From Cytophagales bacterium (lineage in GTDB: Bacteria > Bacteroidota > Bacteroidia > Cytophagales > Bernardetiaceae): DNA of 64,000 nucleotides. The DNA is taken from positions 1 to 64,000 of the forward strand of contig JAAFJX010000012.1 of the NCBI GenBank assembly GCA_013299045.1, written 5' to 3'. The notes below the pieces were generated by a model that worked only from the letters and a program-made list of their open reading frames with translations, had not been told where the DNA came from and ran no database searches. Each line of letters begins with the position of its first letter. Within the stretch, counting starts at the first letter, position 1. Made by a program: the position numbers and the translations under genes. Of this stretch, positions 61,885 to 64,000 are shown one piece after another.

Positions 61885-62157
61885 GTGAAAGCATTTGTTA
61901 TTCTAATGGCTGTTTGGGGACTACTTGGGTTTTGCTTGCTACACAATAGACAAACAGAGCAAGCACGAAAAGATAGAAAAAAAACACTACCACAACTCGC
62001 GATAGCACTCAAAACTTTTGACTGTCAGCTTAATAGCGAAAGTTCTTACTTATTAATGCGCGGCTTTTGTGTATTAAATGAGCCGTTTCAAGATTTCCCC
62101 GCCTACCATACTTACCATGCCGGTATAGAAGGGGCGGCCATAGACACCCTGCGATAG
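61885..62157 (+). CDS. Small membrane-anchored protein of unknown function
   Basis: 90 residues with a GTG start; the first 20 residues are one hydrophobic segment (VKAFVILMAVWGLLGFCLL), followed by a basic region and a mixed tail. The GTG lies six bases after the stop of the lipoprotein gene, which favours a coupled gene. No family was recognised, and the lack of an ATG lowers confidence. Confidence 0.5.
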   Translation: MKAFVILMAVWGLLGFCLLHNRQTEQARKDRKKTLPQLAIALKTFDCQLNSESSYLLMRGFCVLNEPFQDFPAYHTYHAGIEGAAIDTLR

Positions 62158-62159
62158 GC

Positions 62160-62576
62160 TTAACTCTGAGCTTTTAGCCAGCTAAGGGCTTCTTTTTGAT
62201 TCGTGAAAGCGGCTAAACAGAAACCAGTATCTATTTTTTGTGTTTCTTCTTGAAAACTCTCCATAGCCTTGGCGGTGGTGGCTTGTCCTATGACATCGTG
62301 TGGATACACAACAGCTACAATTTTGTAACCCAAAGGAATAGCCTGAGGGAGAAAATTGTTGTTCATCCAATCCTGATTCGTTTTGGTAGCCATAACTGCT
62401 TCCCGACCGTCCACCAAAACACGACTGACACCTCGTTCTATAACGGCCTTTAAGATAAGCTCAAAGCCTTGTTTAAACTCCTCATGAATAGAAAAGCCCG
62501 TCCAAACTGAATGAAGATAATGTCCGTCTGCAACATAATACAACTTAAAAGTATTGATTTCAGCGATTAATTCCAT
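62160..62576 (-). CDS. STAS-like protein, array member 1
   Basis: 138 residues from the ATG at 62576 (MELIAEINTFKLYYVADGHY), the same length as its three neighbours. It has the shared motifs FKLYYVADGHYL, VLVDGREAVMATKTNQDW and PLGYKIVAVVYPHDVIGQAT. The pattern (strand-helix, acidic D-G-R motif, Rossmann-like spacing) suggests a SpoIIAA/STAS-like fold, but this is inference. It is the most diverged of the array and converges with the preceding gene, two bases apart. Confidence 0.65.
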   Translation of the reverse strand: MELIAEINTFKLYYVADGHYLHSVWTGFSIHEEFKQGFELILKAVIERGVSRVLVDGREAVMATKTNQDWMNNNFLPQAIPLGYKIVAVVYPHDVIGQATTAKAMESFQEETQKIDTGFCLAAFTNQKEALSWLKAQS

Positions 62577-62649
62577 TGAAGTATTTTTTACTAACAAAAC
62601 ATTAAACACACAATACCACAGATTGTTTTGTGGCGCATAATACAAGCAA

Positions 62650-62690
62650 CAAAATACAAATATTATTCAAATAAAGCATTTTGTATTTTG
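62650..62690 (-). terminator. Hairpin after array member 2
   Basis: CAAAATACAAA (62650-62660) pairs with TTTGTATTTTG (62680-62690), 11 bp, five bases beyond the stop of the minus-strand member 2. It differs in sequence from the hairpins after members 3 and 4. Confidence 0.6.
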
Positions 62691-62695
62691 TAGTA

Positions 62696-63112
62696 TCAGT
62701 TTTGTTTTACCAACCAAGCTATTGCAGGCTCTTCTTCAACAAAAATTTCCATAAAATAGTCCAGCTCCTGCTTTTCTGCTACTTCTTCAACGCCATCTAG
62801 AGCGCGCTTGGCACTAAGCTGCCCTACCACGTCCAGAGGATAAAGAAACGCTATGTTTTTATAGCCTCTAGGAACAGCCATAGGCAAAAACTCTGTTCCT
62901 ATCCAAATTTGGTCTTCTGCGGTTGCTATGCGAGCGTCTCGGCCATCAACAAGCACACGGTTTGTTTTTTTGTCTTCTATGGCTAGAAGAATAGATGCCA
63001 TAGCAGCCCTGAAGCCCGCACTTGGCGGAAAGCCTATCCATACGGTTTTTAAATAATGACCATCTACCACGTAATAAAGTTTGAAAAAATCTTTGTCTTC
63101 AAGAAGTTCCAT
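62696..63112 (-). CDS. STAS-like protein, array member 2
   Basis: 138 residues. Motifs as in the neighbours: FKLYYVVDGHYLKTVWIGFP, RVLVDGRDARIATAEDQIW, VPRGYKNIAFLYPLDVVGQL and a C-terminal AIAWLVKQN. It is identical in length to members 1, 3 and 4 and lies exactly 513 bp from member 3. No signal peptide, so it is cytoplasmic. Function unknown; a STAS-type anti-anti-sigma role is only a suggestion from the fold impression. Confidence 0.7.
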   Translation of the reverse strand: MELLEDKDFFKLYYVVDGHYLKTVWIGFPPSAGFRAAMASILLAIEDKKTNRVLVDGRDARIATAEDQIWIGTEFLPMAVPRGYKNIAFLYPLDVVGQLSAKRALDGVEEVAEKQELDYFMEIFVEEEPAIAWLVKQN

Positions 63113-63161
63113 GATTAGATTTTAATTTAAGAAGAATAAGAAGTAAAACCAACAAGGAATA

Positions 63162-63202
63162 GTAAAGCACAATGCACTATGAACGAGTACATTGTGCTTT
63201 AC
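63162..63202 (-). terminator. Conserved intergenic hairpin after array member 3
   Basis: GTAAAGCACAATGCA (63162-63176) pairs with TACATTGTGCTTTAC (63188-63202), 14 of 15 pairs. It lies seven bases past the stop of member 3 and recurs 513 bp later after member 4. Whether it terminates transcription or processes the message is open, since the T run is weak. Confidence 0.6.
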
Positions 63203-63208
63203 ACAGTT

Positions 63209-63625
63209 TTAATTTTGTTTTATTAACCAAGCAAGAGCCTCGTCTTCATCAGAGAAAATCTCCATATAATAAGGCAAATCTTGTTTGTCTGTTTCTTCCT
63301 GTATATTTTGTACTGCTCTTTGCGAGGTAAGCTGCCCTACTACGTCATGTGGATATATAACCGCCACGTGCTTATAACCCTGAGGTGCTGCTCTAGGTAA
63401 GAAGTCGGTAGCCAACCAAACTTGGTCTTCGGTAGTAGCCATGCGAGATTCGCGACCATCTATAAGTACACGAGTGGTTTTCTTTTCTATAACTGATTTT
63501 AGAATAGACTCAAAGGCATTCCTGAAACCATCACTAGGCGGAAATCCCACCCAGATAGATTTGAGATAATGACCATCTGCTACATAGTAGAGCTTAAAAA
63601 AATCTTCGTTTACAAGAAGTTCCAT
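63209..63625 (-). CDS. STAS-like protein, array member 3
   Basis: 138 residues, nearly identical to member 4 in the part that can be compared (FLPRAAPQGYK, VVGQLTSQRAVQNIQEE). Motifs are FKLYYVADGHYLKSIWVGFP, VLIDGRESRMATTEDQVW and ALAWLIKQN. The high similarity shows a recent duplication or gene conversion. Function unknown, as for the others. Confidence 0.72.
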   Translation of the reverse strand: MELLVNEDFFKLYYVADGHYLKSIWVGFPPSDGFRNAFESILKSVIEKKTTRVLIDGRESRMATTEDQVWLATDFLPRAAPQGYKHVAVIYPHDVVGQLTSQRAVQNIQEETDKQDLPYYMEIFSDEDEALAWLIKQN

Positions 63626-63674
63626 GATTAGATTTTAATTTAAGAAGAATAAGAAGTGAAACCAACAGGGAATA

Positions 63675-63715
63675 GTAAAGTACAATGCACTATGAACGGA
63701 TACATTGTGCTTTAC
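63675..63715 (-). terminator. Conserved intergenic hairpin after array member 4
   Basis: GTAAAGTACAATGCA (63675-63689) pairs with TACATTGTGCTTTAC (63701-63715), using one G-T wobble and one mismatch. It is offset exactly 513 bp from the previous one. Confidence 0.6.
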
Positions 63716-63721
63716 ATAGTT

Positions 63722-64000
63722 TTAATTTTGTTTTATTAACCACGCAAGAGCCTCGTCTTCATCAGAGAAAATCTCCATATAAAGAGGCAAATCTTGTTTG
63801 TCTTTTTCTTCCTGTATATTTTGTACTGCTCTTTGCGAGGTAAGCTGCCCTACTACGTCATGTGGATATATAAACGCCACGTACTTATAACCCTGAGGCG
63901 CTGCTCTAGGTAAGAAGTCGGTAGCCAACCAAACTTGGTCTTCGGTAGTAGCCATGCGAGATTCGCGACCATCTGCAAATACACGAGAGGTTTTCTTTTC
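63722..64000 (-). CDS. STAS-like protein, array member 4, cut by the window end
   Basis: The last 92 codons of a further copy; the start is beyond 64000. The frame continues upstream of the internal ATG at 63955 through a DGRESRMATTEDQ segment identical to member 3 there, so the internal ATG is not the start. The array may continue outside the window. Confidence 0.7.
   Translation of the reverse strand, partial: EKKTSRVFADGRESRMATTEDQVWLATDFLPRAAPQGYKYVAFIYPHDVVGQLTSQRAVQNIQEEKDKQDLPLYMEIFSDEDEALAWLIKQN

Follow-up and report, generated by a model that had tools for sequence, protein, structure and literature searches.

A tandem array of four SpoIIAA-like genes adjoining a carotenoid oxygenase gene in a Cytophagales bacterium

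Canonical STAS proteins are phosphorylated on a serine at the start of helix 2, and in vertebrates the carrier CRALBP is the partner of RPE65. The folds of SpoIIAA and of the CRAL-TRIO proteins are related, and the SpoIIAA-like family, to which the Shewanella structures 2q3l and 2ook belong, has been proposed to act as carriers of nonpolar molecules at the membrane (PMC2954212). The solved members include a form with a large, deep nonpolar cavity between two lid helices, and the Shewanella proteins share a conserved tryptophan, Trp71, on helix 2 (PMC2954212). The literature searched gives no established function for SpoIIAA-like proteins, although structures have been solved, and searches on SpoIIAA-like proteins in Bacteroidetes, on STAS proteins with carotenoid cleavage, and on carotenoid oxygenases with kinase or GAF domains returned nothing relevant beyond PMC2954212 and PMC2954209.

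The window analysed here is a stretch of 64,000 nucleotides from a Cytophagales genome that groups with the Bernardetiaceae (contig C73 of genome G000 in our notation), at whose right end four intact 138-amino-acid SpoIIAA-like genes lie side by side on the minus strand, the last of them crossing the window edge. We refer to these genes as c1 to c4 in order of their coordinates, and the features of the array are as follows.

62160..62576, minus strand: c1, 138-aa SpoIIAA-like gene, the most diverged copy and transcriptionally the last (ORF, Pfam, comparison of copies)
62577..62695, minus strand: c2-c1 spacer, 119 nt, unlike both other spacers (sequence comparison)
62696..63112, minus strand: c2, 138-aa SpoIIAA-like gene; dN 0.25 and dS 1.84 against c3
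63113..63208, minus strand: c3-c2 spacer, 96 nt, carrying a hairpin
63162-63202, minus strand: hairpin with a 17-bp stem, starting 6 nt past the c3 stop codon
63209..63625, minus strand: c3, 138-aa SpoIIAA-like gene; predicted structure with mean pLDDT 91
63626..63721, minus strand: c4-c3 spacer, 96 nt, sharing 94% identity with that between c3 and c2
63675-63715, minus strand: hairpin in the c4-c3 spacer, with mismatches
63722..64000, minus strand: part of c4 within the window; the whole gene is C73:63722-64138, 138 aa

The original prediction of three stop codons exactly 513 bp apart is borne out for c2, c3 and c4: the stops of c1 to c4 lie at 62160, 62696, 63209 and 63722, giving intervals of 513 bp for c2-c3 and again for c3-c4, and of 536 bp for c1-c2. 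The 513-bp unit consists of a 417-bp gene and a 96-bp spacer, and c2 and c3 share this period, the gene having kept its length and the spacer having been copied along with c3; identity in exact register is 71% over 160-300 nt, far above chance. Past the right edge of the window c4 is completed at 64138, and no fifth copy follows on the contig, so that the total is four. This number is taken from an assembly of 79 contigs in which an extra near-identical copy may be collapsed; c3 and c4 differ at 21 sites and are thus separate copies.

Coding sequences are 96.4% identical between c3 and c4, 69% between c2 and c3, and 52-59% between c1 and the others. Synonymous sites of c1 are saturated, and c1 and c2 are the older copies, diverged long ago, with dS at or near saturation. 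The near identity of c3 and c4 that had been predicted extends over the 513-bp unit including the hairpin spacer, at 95.9% with 21 differences spread along the unit, and ends at the c4 start codon; the DNA upstream of c4 is unrelated to the spacers. A single tandem duplication of the spacer plus c3 would explain this pair. Gene conversion as the main cause of the identity was rejected, since the differences are evenly spread and the similarity stops exactly at the unit end; of the two processes suggested beforehand, recent duplication therefore stands and conversion is not needed. The hairpin was duplicated with the genes, as had also been proposed: the 17-bp stem after c3 (z -7.1) recurs with mismatches after c4 (z -3.6); the unrelated spacer that follows c2 falls short of significance (z -1.9). 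These hairpins could act as terminators. All four reading frames are intact and of equal length, each with its own start; the low dN relative to dS for c2 and c3 indicates purifying selection, and the c3/c4 substitutions alone are compatible with neutrality (P 0.10).

The best Pfam match of the array proteins is PF11964 (SpoIIAA-like), which c3 reaches at 22.5 bits against a cut-off of 25 (E 1.9e-4) and c1 at 18 bits, with no match for c2; 16 of 26 aligned relatives match it at E<=0.1, the best at 8.6e-8. A structure model of c3, built from the 26-sequence alignment, was compared with the PDB, where chains of 2q3l rank first and second (E 4.4e-4 and 5.7e-4) and are followed by the STAS factors RsfB, SpoIIAA and RsbS (TM-score up to 0.64, for RsbS). 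The earlier label of these genes as STAS-like is thus right at the level of fold. In profile alignment, sequence similarity to the canonical STAS proteins found in this bacterial group did not reach significance, PDB sequence searches and NCBIfam and Rfam scans of the locus yielded nothing useful, and the array proteins had no match when searched against named genomes. A tryptophan on helix 2, Trp70, is present in 51 of the 57 family members and is probably equivalent to Trp71 of the Shewanella proteins. Amphipathicity is weak in the predicted lid helices (moments 0.03-0.36).

Just outside the window, directly upstream of c4 on the same strand and separated from it by 46 nt, is a gene for a carotenoid oxygenase, and two further features lie beyond it.

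C73:64185-66443, minus strand: RPE65-family carotenoid oxygenase, 752 aa (PF03055, E 1.6e-17, 64 bits)
C73:66521-67009 (L010:6022-6510), minus strand: remnant of a tandem oxygenase copy, 3' end only (77% nucleotide identity over 290 nt)
C73:67053-68222, minus strand: SpoIIE phosphatase, 389 aa (SpoIIE match C73:67074-67679)

The histidines of the oxygenase motifs STAHP, MHQ, HAAHN and LHSAW, which we take to be the four iron-binding motifs of carotenoid oxygenases, are invariant in the five orthologues except for a shift inside CLHQ. Other neighbours of the array are a Big_9 lipoprotein gene and a small ORF; downstream of c1 the genes are on the plus strand and converge on the array. The plus-strand ORF at 61885-62157 encodes 90 aa with a hydrophobic stretch at the N-terminus; its end lies two bases short of the c1 stop codon, and it has no family match besides a weak one to TPR. 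A scan of the locus with a sigma-70-type promoter model, which does not cover Bacteroidota promoters, found no more sites than in shuffled sequence.

The SpoIIAA-like family has 11 members in the array genome and 11-38 in other genomes of the bacterial family. In a tree of 57 members (all trees come from quick searches, with SH-aLRT as the sole measure of support) the four array copies form one clade (support 99), whose sister (support 88) consists of single-copy genes of three relatives, G002, G007 and G009, each following an orthologous oxygenase gene, at distances of 27, 38 and 47 nt. The oxygenases of these four genomes form one clade (100) together with that of G010 and branch in the same way as the SpoIIAA-like genes. 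The number of array-type copies thus varies among relatives, being four here, one in G002, G007 and G009, and zero in G010. This last genome keeps the oxygenase with no SpoIIAA-like gene behind it and no recognisable remnant of one in the gap, which counts against a partnership of the two genes. A genome of the same genus as the array genome (G001, 84% complete) shows neither of the two. Flanking genes differ between the genera, so the pair of oxygenase and SpoIIAA-like gene has been kept while its surroundings changed. An independent pair, with 5 nt between the genes, is present in another Cytophagales MAG (L168).

A second enzyme is associated with a separate SpoIIAA-like clade (support 98), whose members immediately follow patatin-like phospholipase genes in four genomes, which belong to two families and include the array genome (on contig C62); two further members lie behind a pantoate-pathway gene instead. 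A profile of this clade, applied at a strict threshold to a phylum-wide sample of 396 genomes, matched only its own genome. Other tandem SpoIIAA-like sets are present in G017 (three genes), G005 (two), G038 and G004 (L117:6486-7890, L114:7175-8238, L115:7332-8388, L090:7978-8975), and as the G017 triplet and the G005 pair fall in separate clades, tandem duplication recurs in this family. In the array genome and in G004, SpoIIAA-like genes of different clades are directly followed by a fumarylacetoacetate-hydrolase-family gene (L012:6501-7557, L090:8574-9633).

Most long oxygenases elsewhere adjoin a different neighbour, which also counts against the partnership. Among loci where the gene downstream of the long oxygenase can be read, it encodes a kinase-type protein at 23 of 37 in Bacteroidota and at 8 of 40 in Cyanobacteria, counts that include seven loci from which the kinase profile was seeded and which match by construction; in Marivirga the downstream gene encodes a SpoIIE protein. 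Pfam assigns kinase, AAA_16 and GAF domains in six loci, with a cyclase domain in three and SpoIIE in one. This suggests that carotenoid cleavage is linked to signalling. At L170, L173, L177, L178, L192, L195, L221 and others, giant kinase-AAA_16-GAF proteins ending in a guanylate cyclase or SpoIIE domain are encoded directly downstream of long RPE65-like genes, and the two genes commonly overlap or lie just a few bases apart.

That the array was amplified from one copy to four and is paired with the oxygenase gene is well supported by these comparisons. As an explanation we favour, with a confidence of about one half, that the array arose when the gene for an accessory protein of this RPE65-family oxygenase of about 750 amino acids was amplified in tandem in this lineage, the protein serving in the handling or docking of a hydrophobic substrate. 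We favour it because oxygenase and patatin, two partner enzymes unrelated to each other, both have hydrophobic substrates carried in membranes, and because a nonpolar cavity is present in the structure closest to the model. Our confidence is kept at this level because the lid helices are weakly amphipathic and because we infer, from context and fold, what the SpoIIAA-like proteins do at the oxygenase. Under this explanation a single SpoIIAA-like gene, neighbour and probable operon partner of the oxygenase gene, would have been amplified to four copies, the newest arising through duplication of the 513-bp gene-plus-spacer unit. Its products, of SpoIIAA/CRAL-TRIO-type fold with a pair of lid helices, would be small cytoplasmic proteins that assist the oxygenase, with which they are presumably co-transcribed and may share a physical or substrate link; most likely they would hold a hydrophobic ligand, a carotenoid or apocarotenoid, hand it over, or dock the enzyme to it. 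Multiple copies may then provide dosage plus some specialisation, the latter suggested by the divergence of c1 and c2. A dosage role was among those originally proposed, and the variation in copy number among relatives fits a change in dosage over evolutionary time. The original prediction was correct as to a STAS-like fold and recent duplication; the oxygenase-partner context lay just past the edge of the window.

A different function, which we regard as possible but doubtful, is that the array proteins are switchable protein-binding modules in oxygenase-linked signalling, in which a Ser/Thr kinase would add phosphate to Thr64 and SpoIIE phosphatases, among them the product of the gene upstream, would remove it. 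The fold of the c3 model matches RsfB, SpoIIAA and RsbS, and Thr64 lies in the phospho-Ser register in all four copies, a register that rests on a non-significant profile alignment; among 57 family members, however, the acceptor position is Ser or Thr in only 24, and it is Ala in the oxygenase-linked protein of G002. The SpoIIE gene shares the strand of the array and lies 2.9 kb upstream of it, but proximity to SpoIIE genes is weak in general. Of 43 loci, 5 have a SpoIIE gene at most 2.5 kb away where 3.0 would be expected (P 0.18); for 5 kb the figures are 10 and 5.4 (P 0.04), the expectations being computed from a single density throughout. Copy numbers of SpoIIAA-like and SpoIIE genes correlate across taxonomic families (Spearman 0.53), with strong exceptions such as G011 (no SpoIIAA-like and 34 SpoIIE genes) and G021 (20 and 2). 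No HATPase_c_2 (anti-sigma kinase) gene lies beside the array; the genome's separate HATPase_c_2 and canonical STAS genes are on other contigs, next to each other on C63. A dedicated SpoIIE partnership is weakened by the proximity and copy-number results. We note in passing that the 4.06-Mb array genome has 63 SpoIIE-type PP2C phosphatase matches (about 42-63 in other genomes of the family) and just a few genes of the canonical STAS and HATPase_c_2 types. What keeps the signalling explanation alive is the presence of kinase-AAA_16-GAF-cyclase or -SpoIIE proteins behind long oxygenases elsewhere, so that the enzyme may belong to signalling modules in general. A broader proposal of this kind, which we consider quite improbable, is a bacterial module centred on the carotenoid oxygenase, in which the enzyme has one of two partners, a giant kinase-STAND-GAF-cyclase/SpoIIE sensor or a carrier of SpoIIAA/CRAL-TRIO type; the array would then supply an enlarged set of apocarotenoid carriers or sensors that convert carotenoid cleavage to a signal inside the cell, in parallel to RPE65 and CRALBP.

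It is also unlikely, though slightly less so, that the array reflects near-neutral paralogue expansion, in which frequent tandem duplication and loss leave redundant or drifting copies with no selected effect of dosage. The 11-38 family members per genome, the tandem sets in G017, G005, G038 and G004, the decay of the neighbouring oxygenase duplicate to a fragment, and the failure of the c3/c4 substitutions to reject neutrality (P 0.10) all fit such expansion; against it, the four reading frames are intact and do not differ in length, c1 and c2 have been retained despite their age, and dN is far below dS for c2 and c3. A switching, recombination or decoy array is very improbable. Near-identical tandem copies can recombine, and copy number does range over zero, one and four among relatives, but every copy has its start intact and the even spread of c3/c4 differences argues against ongoing conversion. 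No silent cassettes, recombinase or invertible element were seen adjoining the array, and with c1 and c2 anciently diverged the switching or decoy role raised by the original prediction loses its basis.

The pairings of SpoIIAA-like clades with a carotenoid oxygenase and a patatin phospholipase provide two concrete enzymes against which these proteins can be tested, and in the array four copies of a single partner, diverged to different degrees, form a ready-made series. Among known systems, the STAS anti-anti-sigma factors SpoIIAA, RsfB and RsbS share with the array proteins their fold and the placing of Thr64 in the phospho-Ser register, and differ in that the array family does not conserve the phospho-acceptor and has no RsbW-type gene alongside. 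The combination of an RPE65-family enzyme with a protein of the SpoIIAA/CRAL-TRIO fold class recalls RPE65 and CRALBP of vertebrates, by analogy only; the array proteins are about half the size of CRAL-TRIO carriers, and the likeness is one of fold class. The PF11964 proteins of Shewanella, 2q3l and 2ook, resemble them in size, in the alpha/beta SpoIIAA-like fold, in the frequent replacement of Ser at the phospho-acceptor site and in the helix-2 Trp, whereas the array is set apart by sequences close to the family cut-off, weakly amphipathic lids, defined enzyme-gene partners and tandem expansion.
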